A stretch of 64,000 nt of DNA from Fodinibius sediminis (lineage in GTDB: Bacteria > Bacteroidota > Rhodothermia > Balneolales > Balneolaceae): assembly GCF_900182555.1 (NCBI RefSeq), contig NZ_FXTH01000016.1, positions 1 through 64,000 on the forward strand, in the 5' to 3' direction. The notes below the pieces were generated by a model. That model was not told the DNA's origin, made no database searches, and saw only the letters and a program-made list of their open reading frames with translations. Positions 33,160 through 39,859 of the stretch are shown piece by piece. Made by a program: the position numbers and the translations under genes. How positions within the stretch are numbered: the stretch's first letter is position 1; each line of letters begins with the position of its first letter.

Positions 33160-33516
33160 ATGAGCCAATCTCTCGATGTAACGTTTAAAGCGTTAGGACA
33201 TCCCAAACGACTTGCGATTCTCAAGCGGTTAATTCGCCGCGTTCATACGTGCTGTACGGTAAATGCGGAGGAAGAATGCTGCCTGGAAGAGCCTACCTGT
33301 GATTTTGGCGAACTAAAAGAAGATCTTGGCATCTCCAAATCCTCACTCTCTCTTCATCTAAAAGAACTGCGACATGCCGGATTGGTAGAAAAGATTAAAA
33401 CCGGACGGAAAGTTGCGCTGCAGGTGAACCCGGATCGTTTGGAGGAGCTCAAGGAGTTTTTTGAGATTTCTATCGATCAGCAAACACGACAGTGGATGGT
33501 AGATAAGGTAACTTAA
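33160..33516 (+). CDS. ArsR/SmtB-family repressor with cysteine cluster
   Basis: 118 residues. Winged-helix fold with [14 protein letters not shown], the recognition region [21 protein letters not shown] and the wing. An insert after the first helices has seven nearby cysteines or so ([21 protein letters not shown] region), an unusual and likely thiolate metal or metalloid sensing site. It is divergent from ynfA over a shared operator and its stop overlaps the stop of the oxidoreductase gene by 4 bp (convergent). Confidence 0.9.
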
Positions 33517-34865
33517 ACCATATACGAAATATCAGAAGCATGTGACGGATACGCATAGACCATCTTTTTCAGCGCTGTTGCTTTCAGGTTCTGGTTTATG
33601 GCCATGGCAAACAGGTTGATGATTTCCTCGGATTTGCTGCCCAGCACGTGCGCCCCTAACATTTGGCCGTTCTCGTTGTTGAAGATGGTTTTAAAAGCGG
33701 CAGGGGTTTCGTTGGTTCGCCGGTAGGAATACCATTGGTCTGTTTTTTTGAATTTAACTGTCATGTCATGACCCGCATCGCGAGCTTGTTGTTCAGTTAA
33801 CCCGACCATCGCCAGGGGCGGAACAGTAAACACCACGGTAGGTTGGGCCGGATATTCTGCTTTTTTGTTATTTCCTTCCAGCAGGTTGGAAGCCACAACG
33901 TGAGATTCAAAACCGGCAACTGGGGTTAGGGGCAGCCCATCGGTGTCGGCGGCATCTCCGGCGGCATAGACGTTGGCATTGCTGGGACTTTGCAGGTACT
34001 CGTTAACTGTGATTCCCCGCTTACCTCGTTCCACATTTCCTTTCTCCAGATCCATATCGTCAATATCCGGTACGCGTCCCGCACCATGGATCACGAGATC
34101 CCCGGAAATAGACCGGGGCTTCCCCTTTTGGGAAGCTTTAACGGTAAAATCCTGTCCATCCTTTTGTACGGATTGTACTTCGGCTCCGAGATGCGCCGAA
34201 ATACCCAGCTTTTCTGTTTTTTCTAACAAAATATCCACCAAGTCGCCGTCAAAGCCCTCCAGCGGACGCTCTCCGCGATGCACAATATGCACCTTGCTTC
34301 CGGCTCGCGCTGCAATATGGGCAAACTCAAAGGAGATAAAGCCACCACCAACGAAGACGATGGTCTCGGGGAGCTCCTCCAGCTCCAGAAACTCGGTGCT
34401 GGTCGTAAGATGTTCAACCCCGTCAATAGGCAGCGGCGCAGGTTTAGCCCCGGCAGCAATTAAAAAGTTATTGGCTTTCAAGAATTCACCATTTACTTCG
34501 ATGGTTCCTTCGTCAACAAATGATGCCCGTCCGTGGATAGGAGTAATACCAACCTTTTGCATGCCCTTTTCCCGGTGTTCGGGTACGGGCTGGGTAAAAG
34601 ACTCTTTGAACTGCATTAACTGCTGCCAATCTATGTGAGTATCCGTGGGGACGCCGGTACGGTTCATGCGTCGGTTCCAGTCAATTAGTTCGGCCGCCCC
34701 GACCAGCACTTTCTTGGGGTCGCAGCCGCGCAGGGCGCAGGTGCCGCCAAAGGGCCGGGAGTCAATCTGTGCCACCTCCCAGCCTGCTTTAGCGCATTTT
34801 CTGGCAGCCGTCGAGCCGCCTGATCCGGTTCCGATAACAATGAGGTCGAAATTAGATGTTGCCAT
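33513..34865 (-). CDS. FAD-dependent disulfide oxidoreductase, glutathione-reductase/MerA-like
   Basis: 450 residues. FAD motif LIVIGTGSGGSTAARKCAKA, redox-active pair GGTCALRGCDPKKVL, NAD(P) motif VFVGGGFISFEFAHIAARAG, second FAD motif VYAAGDAADTDG and a C-terminal dimerisation domain. The active-site spacing is that of class I disulfide reductases, but the sequence is CALRGC where MerA and glutathione reductase have CVNVGC. It lacks the HMA domain and the C-terminal Cys pair of MerA. It is last in the mercury gene cluster, so a supporting thiol reductase role is likely; the substrate is unknown. Confidence 0.85.
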   Translation of the reverse strand: MATSNFDLIVIGTGSGGSTAARKCAKAGWEVAQIDSRPFGGTCALRGCDPKKVLVGAAELIDWNRRMNRTGVPTDTHIDWQQLMQFKESFTQPVPEHREKGMQKVGITPIHGRASFVDEGTIEVNGEFLKANNFLIAAGAKPAPLPIDGVEHLTTSTEFLELEELPETIVFVGGGFISFEFAHIAARAGSKVHIVHRGERPLEGFDGDLVDILLEKTEKLGISAHLGAEVQSVQKDGQDFTVKASQKGKPRSISGDLVIHGAGRVPDIDDMDLEKGNVERGKRGITVNEYLQSPSNANVYAAGDAADTDGLPLTPVAGFESHVVASNLLEGNNKKAEYPAQPTVVFTVPPLAMVGLTEQQARDAGHDMTVKFKKTDQWYSYRRTNETPAAFKTIFNNENGQMLGAHVLGSKSEEIINLFAMAINQNLKATALKKMVYAYPSHASDISYMV

Positions 34866-35684: not shown

Positions 35685-35915
35685 TTATTTATTTTGTTTG
35701 AAATACCAATATCCAATGAAAGAGATCAACACAACCGCTGCGGCCGCAACCCAAAATCCTTTGGAGACCAGAAGTGCCGACAAACTTATACCTCCCAGCA
35801 ACACGAGCAAGGCAACTCCAATACAACAGATAGCATGCAGCAGGAGAAGTATCAGCGCTGCCCAGGCATCCGACCAGTTATTTTGATTGTTATTCGTGTG
35901 ATCAGTCTTCTCCAT
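35685..35915 (-). CDS. small two-helix membrane protein with Cys-Cys pair
   Basis: 76 residues, two hydrophobic helices. The first contains LLLHAICCIGVALLVLLGG with vicinal cysteines, as in the first helix of MerT, MerF and MerC transporters. The tail is short and positive. It overlaps the end of merF by 14 bp on the same strand. A mercuric-ion import role beside MerF is likely; family assignment is tentative. Confidence 0.7.
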   Translation of the reverse strand: MEKTDHTNNNQNNWSDAWAALILLLLHAICCIGVALLVLLGGISLSALLVSKGFWVAAAAVVLISFIGYWYFKQNK

Positions 35916-36150
35916 CTTTTTGCTTTAACGTTTTATTTTTTTGGTACTGATTATATCCAAAGAAGAAAAGTGCTAAGGATATAAAGAGAACCGGCAGCAG
36001 CACATAGTCCAGATAGGCGGTAAAGGCGGCCAGCCCGGCAGCAGCAAATCCCCATACCAATATTGGAGTGAAACAACACAAGGCGGCAACCAAGGTGCCC
36101 CAGAAGCCAACTTGGGCATATTTGTTCTTCAGGAAATCGAAACGAGACAT
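35902..36150 (-). CDS. merF: mercuric ion importer MerF
   Basis: 82 residues from ATG 36150 (the usual MerF length is about 81). Two helices: LVAALCCFTPILVWGFAAAG with the vicinal Cys pair that takes up Hg2+, and the second helix YVLLPVLFISLALFFFGYN, with a lysine-rich tail. It brings Hg2+ across the inner membrane to mercuric reductase. It follows merA by 32 bp in the operon. Confidence 0.9.
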   Translation of the reverse strand: MSRFDFLKNKYAQVGFWGTLVAALCCFTPILVWGFAAAGLAAFTAYLDYVLLPVLFISLALFFFGYNQYQKNKTLKQKDGED

Positions 36151-36182
36151 AATGTTATATGAATTATTTACTTTGAGATCGA

Positions 36183-37826
36183 TTACACTGCGCAGCAACT
36201 TAGCTTCTTGACGTCTTTGTCGAAGGTGAGTGCCGCCAACTTGATGCCCTCCGAGAGCGTCAGGTACGGGTGGAATTCCGAAATAAGCGATTTAACCGTT
36301 ACGCCGTGACGCATGGCCATGGCCAGTTCCATCAGCAACTCCGAGCCTTCCGGGGCCAGGATGCGGGCACCGACCAGCTGGTCGTTTTCCTTGTTGCGGA
36401 TCAGCTTGATGAACCCGCGCGTATCGCGGGCGGCAATGGAGCGGGGCACGTTATCCAGGGTAAGCTTGGTAGTATCGTAGTTAATACCGGCCTCCCGTGC
36501 CTGTAGCTCGTCCATGCCGATGCCGGCTACCTGCGGATCGGTGAAGATCACCCACGGCAGTACCGAATAATCGGCTTTTCGGGAAGCCCCACGCAGAGCA
36601 TTTTCGGCGGCCAGATTGCCTTCGTAGGCGGCCGTATAAACAAACTGGTATTGGCCGGTTATGTCGCCTGCGGCAAAGATGTTAGGAACGGAGCTGCGCA
36701 TGGATTCATCTACAGGAATGTATCCACGACCGACCGTGTCAATACCGACCTGTTCCAGTCCCAGCCCCCCGGAATTGCCCTGCCGCCCGGTGGCCACCAG
36801 TAGGTGGGTGGCCTTGAGCGTGGTTTCCTGTCCGTTCACGGTCAGTTCTACCATTTTCTCATCACCTGTTGATTTGACTTCTTTCACATCGGTGTTGGTC
36901 AACACGGTAATGCCTTCGTCTTTCAGGTATCCGGTCAGGCCTCGGGCCAGCTCGTCGGGCTGGTCGCTGAGTACGTGCGCCGAGCGTTGCACGATGGTCA
37001 CCTTCGAACCCAGCCGGGCAAAGAGCTGGGCGTTTTCCAGGGCGATATAGCCACCGCCGAATACAATGAGGCTTTCAGGAAGTTCTTCCAGTTCGTAGGC
37101 ACTTTCATTGGTAAGGTATCCGGCCTCCTCCAGTCCGGGAACGTCCGGCACAAAAGTTGAGGCCCCGGTAGCGATCAGAATGTGGTCGGCATGGTACGTT
37201 TCGCCGCCTGCCTCGACGGTATGCTGGTCAACCAGGGTGCCCCGTACTTTCAACAGGGTGATGTTAGGATCGTCCTTGATCACGTCAATATATTTTTGCT
37301 GGCGCAGATCCTGAACCATCTCTCGTTTCTGGTCGATGATCTTCTTAAAATCGGCAATACGGCTTTGGGTTTCGATGCCTTCAAAGCCGGGATTCTTTGC
37401 CCGGTGGTGAGCTTCGGCGGTGCGGATCAGTGTCTTGGAGGGCACACAGCCTACGTTTACGCAGGTACCCCCGGTGGGCAGCCCTTTGTTGATGATGAGG
37501 GCGGTGCCGCCCAGCTCGCTGGCCTTGATGGCTGCGGCAAAGGCAGTGGAACCGCCGCCGATGATCACCAGAGAATACCGGCTCCTGCCGTTTTCCTGGT
37601 CACCGATTTCACCGGTTACCTTGTAGTGTCCAGTCGCATTGATAGTGTCGATCAGTTCCTCTTTGGTGATTTGTTCCGGATCGTAGGTGATCTCGGCTTG
37701 CTCGTCGGGGTAGCTGACGGTTTTGTCCAGCACTCCCTTTTTATCCTCAAATTGGTTGGCCACGGTTCGGGCACAACCGTCGCAGGTCATGCCGCTTATG
37801 GATAGGTTCAGGGTTTGTTCTTTCAT
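36183..37826 (-). CDS. merA: mercuric reductase MerA
   Basis: 547 residues. An HMA domain (GMTCDGCARTV) at residues 1-70 passes Hg2+ to the catalytic core. The core has the FAD motif IIGGGSTAFAAAIKA, the active site GGTCVNVGCVPSKTLIR, an NADPH motif VFGGGYIALENAQLFARLG and FAAGDITG. The C-terminal vicinal pair (KKLSCCAV) that delivers mercury from the partner subunit is present. It reduces Hg2+ to volatile Hg0 in the cytosol with NADPH. A palindromic operator lies 11 bp before the start, matching the one before the arsR gene. Confidence 0.97.
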   Translation of the reverse strand: MKEQTLNLSISGMTCDGCARTVANQFEDKKGVLDKTVSYPDEQAEITYDPEQITKEELIDTINATGHYKVTGEIGDQENGRSRYSLVIIGGGSTAFAAAIKASELGGTALIINKGLPTGGTCVNVGCVPSKTLIRTAEAHHRAKNPGFEGIETQSRIADFKKIIDQKREMVQDLRQQKYIDVIKDDPNITLLKVRGTLVDQHTVEAGGETYHADHILIATGASTFVPDVPGLEEAGYLTNESAYELEELPESLIVFGGGYIALENAQLFARLGSKVTIVQRSAHVLSDQPDELARGLTGYLKDEGITVLTNTDVKEVKSTGDEKMVELTVNGQETTLKATHLLVATGRQGNSGGLGLEQVGIDTVGRGYIPVDESMRSSVPNIFAAGDITGQYQFVYTAAYEGNLAAENALRGASRKADYSVLPWVIFTDPQVAGIGMDELQAREAGINYDTTKLTLDNVPRSIAARDTRGFIKLIRNKENDQLVGARILAPEGSELLMELAMAMRHGVTVKSLISEFHPYLTLSEGIKLAALTFDKDVKKLSCCAV

Positions 37827-37836
37827 AACATTTATT

Positions 37837-37856
37837 ATTTAAGCAAATTCTTAAAT
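37837..37856 (-). promoter_or_regulatory. mer operator candidate before merA
   Basis: ATTTAAGCAAATTCTTAAAT is an inverted repeat with ATTTAAG/CTTAAAT arms, 11 bp before merA. It agrees at 17 of 20 positions with 38969-38988. Probably the binding site of the ArsR-family mer regulator. Confidence 0.65.
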
Positions 37857-37909
37857 TACTGATAAAATAAAACGCCCGAGAATGGTCAAAGCAGGTAACA
37901 GGGCTACTG

Positions 37910-38536
37910 CTAATTGGACTGCTTCTCGGCTACCGTAAAACCGGTTTTGTTGATAGCGGCTTTAATTGTTTCCTGGTTGGTCTTGCTCTGGTCATACCTG
38001 ATGGTTGCCTTACCGGTATCATAGGAAGCGTCGGCTTCCAGAACTCCATCTACACCGCTGGCAGCATTTTCGACAGTTGCCTCACAGCCGGTGCAGGTCA
38101 TCCCTTTAATGTCCCAAGTGATGGTTTGCACCTGGCTTTCCTGCACGTACACGACCTGCTTGTCCTGTTTAGGGAAAAAGGCATCCGAGTAGTAGGGAAA
38201 AGCCAGCAGTAGTGCGGCCAAGAAAGTTACAACGCCCAGAAATCCTTTGGTCTGCCAGAAAGAGGGGTTCTCCTCGCAGGCACAGTCCGGATCCCATTGG
38301 GGTCTGAGCTTTTGATACCAAGCAAAGCCCAGTAGCAGGGCGGTTAGACCAATCAGATAAGGTCGAAAGGGTTCGACCCATGAAAAGGTGGATGCTACAC
38401 CTCCGATACCTGCCAGAAAGGCAAAAACTGGGGTTACACAACACAGGGAGGCGACAAAAGCGGCCATCAGGCCGGCCCCCATCCATTTTGTGTCTGTGCT
38501 ATCTTTAGGCTGATTACTTTTGGTTTGTTCGTTCAT
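37910..38536 (-). CDS. merT: fused mercuric transport protein MerTP
   Basis: 208 residues. The N-terminal three-helix MerT part contains the first-helix Cys pair (FVASLCCVTPVFAFLAG) and a cytoplasmic Cys pair (WDPDCACEE). The C-terminal part is a MerP-like HMA domain with GMTCTGCEATVENA at about residue 145 onward. Fusion of transporter and metal-binding domain in one protein is typical of Bacteroidota mer operons. It imports Hg2+ for MerA. It overlaps the arsR stop by 4 bp (ATGA), indicating translational coupling. Confidence 0.95.
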   Translation of the reverse strand: MNEQTKSNQPKDSTDTKWMGAGLMAAFVASLCCVTPVFAFLAGIGGVASTFSWVEPFRPYLIGLTALLLGFAWYQKLRPQWDPDCACEENPSFWQTKGFLGVVTFLAALLLAFPYYSDAFFPKQDKQVVYVQESQVQTITWDIKGMTCTGCEATVENAASGVDGVLEADASYDTGKATIRYDQSKTNQETIKAAINKTGFTVAEKQSN

Positions 38537-38913
38537 GCGGCTAACACCTCCAGAATATTGTTATCTTTAATTTGATCAAAGCTTGGGGAAAGAATTTCAT
38601 TAAATTGCGGGTTCAGCGAGTAAAAAATGGTTTGGCCGTCGCGCTGGGTCTCCACCAGTCCCCCGTCCTTTAGCTTGCGCAGGTGCTGGGAGACGGCCGG
38701 GACGCTCATGTCCAGGATATCGCTCAGGTCGCAGGGGCAAAGGTGTTCTTCCCGGTTGAGCAGGTAGAGGATCTTCAGGCGCGCGTCGTTGGCTGCCAGT
38801 TTCAGAATATCAGTTAACCGGTCAATAGACCCTTCTACTTCTTCCAGGGAGTCAATACAACGGTTAATCTGGTTTAAGTCGGCGACCTCACGAATACATT
38901 CTTGCTTGCTCAT
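38533..38913 (-). CDS. ArsR-family repressor of the mer operon
   Basis: 126 residues. Helix-turn-helix segments ARLKILYLLNREEHLCPCDL and LDMSVPAVSQHLRKLKDGGL are of the ArsR/SmtB type. The CPCDL cysteines correspond to the metal-binding ELCVCD box of ArsR and CadC. It heads the merTP transcript. Bacteroidota mer operons often use an ArsR protein in place of MerR; here both are present. Two matched palindromes (38969 and 37837) are its probable operators. Confidence 0.92.
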   Translation of the reverse strand: MSKQECIREVADLNQINRCIDSLEEVEGSIDRLTDILKLAANDARLKILYLLNREEHLCPCDLSDILDMSVPAVSQHLRKLKDGGLVETQRDGQTIFYSLNPQFNEILSPSFDQIKDNNILEVLAA

Positions 38914-38968
38914 AGTTTTGGCTGTTGGTTGCGTTTCATTATTACAACATAAGTATAATAAATATATT

Positions 38969-38988
38969 ATTTAATTAAATACTTAAAT
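38969..38988 (-). promoter_or_regulatory. mer operator candidate before arsR-merTP
   Basis: ATTTAATTAAATACTTAAAT, with ATTTAA/TTAAAT arms around eight bases, matches the site before merA. It includes a 14-bp perfect palindrome TATTTAATTAAATA at 38968-38981. It lies 56 bp before the arsR start, between that gene and merR. Confidence 0.65.
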
Positions 38989-39015: not shown

Positions 39016-39474
39016 TTATCTTAAATTCCTCCCCATTTGACTGTCTCCTTCCAAGGCACCAAGAATAGGACAATCTCCCTTAGGTCCTTCACCGGCACAC
39101 GAATCAATTAAATCTACTAGGGTATTTTTGATTCGCTGCAGATCTTCGATTTTTTCAACCACATCTTGGAATTTTTCCTGTGCTTCGCTTTTAATTTCCG
39201 AGCAGGTAGTATCTTCATCCATACGCAGCTCCAGCAGCTCTTTGATTTCGCTAAGGGTAAACCCAAGTTCTTGTGATCGCTTGATAAACTTGATCTGATC
39301 GATATGGCGTTGGGTGAAGATTCGGTAGCCGGAACGCCAGCGGTCAGGCGTGGGGATGAGCCCCCGCTTTTCGTAGTAGCGCACAGTCTCTTTGTTGACA
39401 TGAGCACGGCTGGCTACCTGACCAATCTTAAACGTGACGACACCCTCATATTTTTGGTCCATCTCTTCTCTCAT
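39016..39474 (-). CDS. merR: Hg-responsive MerR-family regulator
   Basis: 152 residues. The DNA-binding part has FKIGQVASRAHVNKETVRYYEKR-type sequence (shown by VNKETVRYYEKRGLIPTP). The three mercury-binding cysteines of MerR are in place: TTCSEIKSEAQ, then DSCAGEGPKGDCPILGALE, where the Cys-x8-Cys-Pro spacing is MerR-like. It activates mer promoters on binding Hg2+. It lies just upstream of the arsR gene on the same strand. A terminator lies upstream of it, so it must start from a promoter in the 48 bp between. Confidence 0.92.
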   Translation of the reverse strand: MREEMDQKYEGVVTFKIGQVASRAHVNKETVRYYEKRGLIPTPDRWRSGYRIFTQRHIDQIKFIKRSQELGFTLSEIKELLELRMDEDTTCSEIKSEAQEKFQDVVEKIEDLQRIKNTLVDLIDSCAGEGPKGDCPILGALEGDSQMGRNLR

Positions 39475-39508: not shown

Positions 39509-39555
39509 AATGAGAAAGAAAAGATAATAGCCGGAACTAATGCCCGGCTACTATC
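39509..39555 (-). terminator. rho-independent terminator between Cys-rich gene and merR
   Basis: On the minus strand GATAGTAGCCGG pairs with CCGGCTATTATC (39523-39555; one mismatch) and is followed by TTTTCTTTCT. It ends the short cysteine-rich gene transcript. Confidence 0.8.
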
Positions 39556-39567
39556 TTGAGGTTGATA

Positions 39568-39714
39568 TTAGTTTATCTTTTCCATGGTTTTACCACAACA
39601 ACAGGTAGGATTTTGGTCGCCGGAGCAATCAGCCGGGGCGCCTTTGGTAACGGTGACTTCACATCCACAACTGTCGTCAGGGCATTGATATATTTCTCCT
39701 TTTTGTAAGGGCAT
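39568..39714 (-). CDS. small cysteine-rich metal-binding protein (48 aa)
   Basis: A 48-residue protein starting MPLQKGEIYQCPDDSCGCEV and ending with CSGDQNPTCCCGKTMEKIN. It has nine or so cysteines in small clusters, in the manner of metallothionein-like proteins. AAAGGAG-like sequence is not before the start, as usual in this genome. A strong terminator follows 12 bp after the stop. It lies between the copper-linked DUF2231 gene and merR. Small cysteine-rich proteins of this type are found in metal-resistance loci of Bacteroidota; a metal-buffering role is inferred. Confidence 0.7.
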   Translation of the reverse strand: MPLQKGEIYQCPDDSCGCEVTVTKGAPADCSGDQNPTCCCGKTMEKIN

Positions 39715-39859
39715 AATAACATGGCTTTAAAGGTTAAAAGAACAGTTCATCGGTAATATAAGCCCTGTACCATGGTCCAGAGTCAAATGATTATTCTAAT
39801 TATTTGATCTATCACTTAGTTTTAGCCGATTTTACCTGTAGTATACCAAAACAGGGCGA

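Follow-up and report, generated by a model that had tools for sequence, protein, structure and literature searches.

Mercury resistance operons that carry ArsR-like regulators have been described in Bacteroidetes, Sulfolobus and Streptomyces, and the presence of arsR is inversely correlated with that of merR across mer operons (Boyd and Barkay, PMC3466566). That survey tabulates genes, and the word "operator" occurs zero times in its text. In the Firmicutes-type MerR signal, a dyad is placed inside a 20-bp promoter spacer (PMC1526738). A different precedent concerns repressor sites located in the path of RNA polymerase: in the galactose operon of Escherichia coli, the polymerase is reported to override the repressor bound at an internal operator (PMC4693257). 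At the level of promoters, Flavobacteria are described as using a TAnnTTTG box at position -7 (PMC9723704).

The stretch of DNA analysed here, 64,000 nucleotides long and referred to as the window, comes from a Balneolaceae genome, and its closest named loci are those of Fodinibius roseus and F. salsisoli. All genes concerned with the two sites discussed below lie on the minus strand, in the order DUF2231 membrane protein gene, 48-aa Cys-rich gene, merR, arsR, merTP and merA; behind merA follow a merF-like gene, the genes of two membrane proteins of 76 and 251 aa, and that of a 450-aa flavoprotein reductase (Table 1). Both MerA and MerTP score above the curated equivalog cut-offs of their families. 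As the preliminary description had noticed, an ArsR and a MerR regulator coexist in the cluster. The locus resembles the surveyed operons in that an ArsR-family repressor would be in charge of a mer operon, and departs from the reported inverse correlation in that arsR and merR stand together with separate predicted sites (PMC3466566). Parts of different origins seem to have been put together in this cluster: the 450-aa reductase shares 94% identity with its counterpart in genome G007 (compared at L104), as against 86% for arsR and 82% for merTP. Its composite look extends to the merA, merF-like and 251-aa membrane-protein genes, which stand where most relatives have a GDCCVxC gene; in most arsR-merTP operons (L103, L104, L121 and others) this gene for a small GDCCVxC-domain protein occupies the place of the downstream palindrome and merA.

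Table 1. Predicted features of the mer cluster, in window coordinates
Feature	Position	Strand	Remarks
MerR-type promoter	39755..39786	-	TTGACT-CTGGACCATGGTACAGGGCT-TATATT; GTAC dyad, 20-bp spacer
48-aa Cys-rich protein gene	39568..39714	-	first gene behind the MerR-type promoter
Terminator-like hairpin	39521..39557	-	in the interval between the 48-aa gene and merR
merR, MerR-family regulator	39016..39474	-	three cysteines taken to bind mercury
O1, predicted operator of an ArsR-type repressor	38969..38988	-	ATTTAAGTATTTAATTAAAT; 55 nt 5' of the arsR start codon
Candidate -7 box	38948..38955	-	TACTTATG; 5/6 to TAnnTTTG; 13 nt after O1, the modal offset elsewhere
arsR, ArsR/SmtB-family repressor	38533..38913	-	Cys6, Cys19, Cys59, Cys61
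merTP, fused mercury transporter	37910..38536	-	NF033556, 263 bits (cut-off 180)
O2, predicted internal operator	37837..37856	-	ATTTAAGAATTTGCTTAAAT; ends 10 nt 5' of the merA start codon
merA, mercuric reductase	36183..37826	-	N-terminal HMA domain; TIGR02053, 543 bits (cut-off 454)
merF-like transporter gene	35902..36159	-	downstream of merA
450-aa reductase gene	33513..34865	-	

The two palindromes, O1 before arsR and O2 before merA, are as the preliminary description gave them: the hexamers of the ATTTAA-N8-TTAAAT symmetry are exact in both and the 20-mers are identical at 17 of 20 positions. When up to one mismatch is allowed, these are the only two such palindromes in the 64 kb, with 0.33 expected from shuffled sequence. 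In dinucleotide shuffles an exact palindrome appears with a frequency of 0.0002 in the merTP-merA gap and 0.002 in the merR-arsR gap. The exact pattern occurs at three places in the 4.43-Mb genome, and two of them, 1.13 kb apart, are O1 and O2; the third (G000:C1:36843-36862) has an unrelated core. Duplication of O1 is an unlikely origin of O2, which carries the phylum-type TTGCTT core that O1 lacks. Letter for letter, the O2 sequence is also found as the arsR operator of other families (L131, L134 and the Spirosoma linguale plasmid locus L189).

That both palindromes are operators of the local ArsR repressor, as first suggested from the letters of this locus, is a conclusion we draw with considerable confidence, because the palindrome tracks this arsR throughout the phylum, including neighbourhoods without an adjacent merR. 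Loci were collected through ArsR orthologs in 97 relatives and 395 genomes of the phylum, and further ones through merA, which gave 52 arsR loci, some of them sharing a genome or closely related. At least 11 of the 12 arm positions are matched upstream of arsR in 49 of these 52 orthologous Bacteroidota loci (all 12 in 44, 11 in five, and only 10 in the remaining three, L144, L154 and L155), compared with a mean of 0.79 and a maximum of 3 in shuffled upstream sequences; three loci (L148, L150, L151) had been chosen through the palindrome itself, and excluding them leaves 46 of 49. A stricter pattern matches in 23 of 92 genomes of the family and nowhere in the controls, and of the 28 places that it picks out, 23 or more are arsR loci. 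The site was present in four of six named plasmid loci, taken from 16 plasmid matches (Haliscomenobacter, Spirosoma, Adhaeribacter and Pontibacter), and the other two, in Hymenobacter (L191) and Fibrella (L193), had no match at 10 of 12 positions or better. The merR gene adjoins arsR in only eight of the 52 loci, with a merR-like fragment at a ninth (L112), and many arsR loci bear the site with no adjacent merR match (L102, L107-L111 and L113-L117, for example). A search of titles and abstract openings, covering sources other than subscription journals, returned no description of this operator.

Several other occurrences were recorded. Matches to a looser pattern at L147, L149, L152, L153, L156 and L157 stand without an arsR or merTP match and look like chance matches; the one at L147 precedes a gene that we take to resemble YebC. 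At L126 a palindrome complete at 12 of 12 positions, with an unrelated core, lies within the coding end of arsR and was left out of the operator count. In the second copy in F. roseus (L120/L035), the arsR and reductase matches are fragmented like those of a decayed copy and the operator is intact.

The product of arsR has a winged-helix ArsR domain that scores above the cut-offs of PF01022 (64.3 bits; cut-off 22) and NF033788 (85.6; 55), and its best match among solved structures is CadC (PDB 1u2w). A CxC motif in helix alpha-3 together with N-terminal cysteine constitutes a CadC-type metal site, and the N-terminal cysteines of CadC have a 7/11 spacing. The residues of such a thiol metal site are in place here: Cys6, Cys59 and Cys61 are found in all 52 ArsR sequences and Cys19 in 48. 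The protein is thus like CadC in its CxC in the alpha-3 region and its N-terminal cysteines, and unlike it in heading a mer operon and in having the N-terminal cysteines at positions 6 and 19.

The sequence around the arsR operators has the layout of a promoter. Boxes that match TAnnTTTG at 5 or 6 of its 6 positions follow the operator by 8-14 nt, mostly by 13, in 45 of 49 loci; shuffled sequences give a mean of 4.1 and a maximum of 10. A TTG at -33 is part of the Bacteroidota promoter type, and in 40 of the 49 loci a TTG occupies the operator centre at a distance of some 20 nt to the -7 box, so that ArsR on its operator would cover the -33 box. By sequence comparison, then, arsR has an inverted-repeat operator overlapping its own promoter, the arrangement looked for in the ArsR/SmtB family. 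In the window, AATTAA replaces GCTTAA in the core of O1 and the -33 TTG is lost; because of this loss, and with only TACTTATG as a -7 box, its arsR promoter is probably weaker. Operators paired at a distance of 36 bp precede arsR in nine of the 52 loci, which are all closely similar; here about 9-12 nt separate the end of the second operator from the start codon. The arsR promoter at L128 has a further, imperfect palindrome (TTAAGCAAATGCTTAA, after 1485) downstream of its -7 box.

The preliminary description had asked which promoter each regulator governs, and comparison offers an answer at the level of sequence: the palindromes most likely belong to ArsR and another promoter to MerR, for which a separate, conserved promoter with a dyad appears to lie 0.8 kb upstream. 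We think it very likely that MerR acts away from the palindromes. The promoter in question, ahead of the 48-aa Cys-rich gene and merR, contains a dyad in a spacer of the 19-20 bp length expected of MerR targets. Its dyad, GTAC-4-GTACAGGG within a 20-bp spacer, resembles the Firmicutes type, although its left half-site is degenerate (GGAC) and it precedes the 48-aa gene and merR, whereas the promoters given there precede merT or merA (PMC1526738). A 23-base pattern of this type occurs at 22 places in 16 of the 92 family genomes and not at all in the control. Downstream of these 22 sites the 48-aa gene follows at about 70 nt in 19 cases, merR is also present in 16, and arsR as well in seven, within the 1.5 kb that was fetched; the MerR and ArsR modules thus occur both apart and together. 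At L179 (G007:C41:130092) a MerR-type site, the 48-aa gene, merR and merTP follow in series with no arsR match within 1.5 kb, and merTP may be under MerR there. Downstream of the sites at L166, L171 and L178 there are HMA-like reading frames and no 48-aa gene.

We use the label "MerR-type" because the merR product scores 136.6 bits against TIGR02051, below the cut-off of 150.85, yet this is its best-scoring family. The three mercury-binding cysteines of MerR are all present in it, each matched by a cysteine in the structures 4ua1 and 5crl. The 48-aa protein, which gives weak matches to the metallothionein MymT (E 0.0015, far below the cut-off) and to a desulfoferrodoxin N-terminus (E 0.024), is possibly a mercury-binding peptide. 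Hairpins in the interval between its gene and merR are found in the window and in relatives, with differing sequences and strengths.

O2 itself is a strong site. When both strands of the window are scanned with a matrix derived from 25 arsR operators, all from outside the genus of the window, O2 ranks first, with a score of 29.7 against 23.0 for O1 and 9.8 for the best unrelated position; of the two sites, O2 is the nearer to the phylum consensus. A second ArsR-family gene in the window (33160-33516, plus strand), with several extra cysteines and convergent with the 450-aa reductase gene, has no operator-like match to this matrix nearby. In a comparison with F. roseus (L102), O2 is unchanged at 19 of 20 positions; the adjacent upstream 20 nt agree at 10, the next 20 at six, and the first 300 nt of merA at 235. 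Intergenic operators within the operon were found at four of the 52 loci: before merA in the window and L102, before the gene of an HMA protein upstream of merA in L117, and before merTP in L143, in each case ending 9-10 nt 5' of the start codon. Across 395 genomes, eight places have an operator with an ATG 7-13 nt behind it, and three of these are mer loci, including those of the window and of the L117 genome. Since the internal operator is this rare and most merA-carrying operons do without one, O2 cannot be essential.

The earlier proposal that merA has its own regulated promoter was not borne out, as the -33/-7 pair typical of arsR operators (45 of 49) is missing at O2. None of the four internal operators is followed by a -7 box of at least 5 of 6 positions, and a sigma-70 scan of the merTP-merA gap found no promoter. 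Upstream of O2, the window has a weak TTG-N17-TATTTTAT that matches at 4 of 6 positions with a spacing of only 17 nt; L117 likewise has only 4/6 matches upstream of its internal operator, and F. roseus and L143 have none. A terminator in the gap, made up of a hairpin and a T-run, was considered and set aside, the fold there reaching -12.4 kcal/mol (z -0.66) and the terminator scan listing none; in F. roseus a hairpin forms at -10 kcal/mol (z -1.97), without a T-run. An RNA hairpin at O2 itself (-3.6 kcal/mol, z -0.40) was unconvincing. Transcription of merA probably starts at the arsR promoter, and with no standard promoter boxes at O2 and no clear terminator in the gap, we take O2 to be an operator internal to a transcript that reads through from merTP into merA. 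In this respect it is like gal OI, a second operator downstream of the promoter and in the path of the polymerase, with the difference that OI lies within the first gene and 113 bp from its partner, whereas O2 is intergenic and 1.13 kb from O1 (PMC4693257).

What ArsR would do at O2 can be imagined in several ways. Our preferred mechanism, plausible though held at somewhat short of even confidence, is a roadblock to polymerases reading through from upstream, an effect that cannot be taken as automatic because the gal polymerase is reported to override the repressor at its internal operator (PMC4693257). Alternatively, a weak merA promoter might lie just upstream of O2, with ArsR covering its start site. 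O2 does resemble a genuine operator, the weak TTG pair stands directly upstream of it, and CGTTTTA, or CGTTTT with a few more bases, is common to F. roseus; but the spacing and the -7 match are poor, F. roseus lacks the corresponding TTG pair and agrees with the window at just half of the 20 upstream positions, and the sigma-70 scan is empty, so that we regard such a promoter as unlikely. Of a similar, low probability is the idea that O2 is a functionless remnant of an older promoter that arrived with merA when the cluster was assembled. Its closeness to the phylum consensus and the composite appearance of the cluster would fit this origin; the near-complete retention of O2 between two species across a diverged flanking gap, and the same distance to the start codon in two other lineages (L117 and L143), speak against loss of function.

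A DNA loop of about 1.13 kb, in which ArsR bridges O1 and O2 for tighter repression, would make use of two strong sites in one operon and has a possible parallel in the operators paired 36 bp apart that recur before arsR. We nevertheless consider it improbable, given that what is conserved from locus to locus is the distance of the second operator from a start codon and not the spacing of the two operators, and that, to our knowledge, ArsR/SmtB repressors are not generally known to form loops. Binding of the palindromes by MerR is by far the least credible of these possibilities: merR does adjoin arsR at some loci, yet the palindrome persists where no merR is adjacent, neither palindrome gap contains a GTAC core, and a better MerR dyad is found elsewhere.

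Returning to the preferred reading, the combination of ArsR at both palindromes, O2 as an internal block and MerR at a separate promoter is one that we hold to be probable. The CadC-like ArsR would bind O1 and O2. Without mercury, ArsR at O1, a site that spans the -33 region of the promoter of arsR-merTP-merA, would exclude RNA polymerase and so autorepress the operon, while ArsR at O2 would stop polymerases reading through from upstream and keep the reductase off. Binding of Hg(II) to ArsR, through Cys6, Cys19, Cys59 and Cys61, would release both sites. MerR would control the promoter that drives the 48-aa Cys-rich protein gene and merR itself. More tentatively, and with rather less confidence than we place in the roadblock, the locus may form a three-site, two-sensor circuit, in which MerR, at its own promoter, activates a Cys-rich mercury-buffering peptide, O1 serves ArsR in repressing uptake and reduction, and O2, with no promoter of its own, acts as a mercury-released roadblock. 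If so, the threshold for induction of the reductase would differ from that of the transporter encoded in the same operon.

These observations provide a predicted operator for an ArsR-type mercury regulator in Bacteroidota. It coincides with the -33 box of the promoter type of the phylum, and it opens mer regulation beyond the MerR paradigm to direct testing. A class of operators that end 9-12 nt ahead of a start codon also recurs among these loci. The regulator and its site constitute a candidate mercury-sensing part for Bacteroidota, in a cluster where ArsR and MerR mercury sensors would operate side by side on separate predicted targets.
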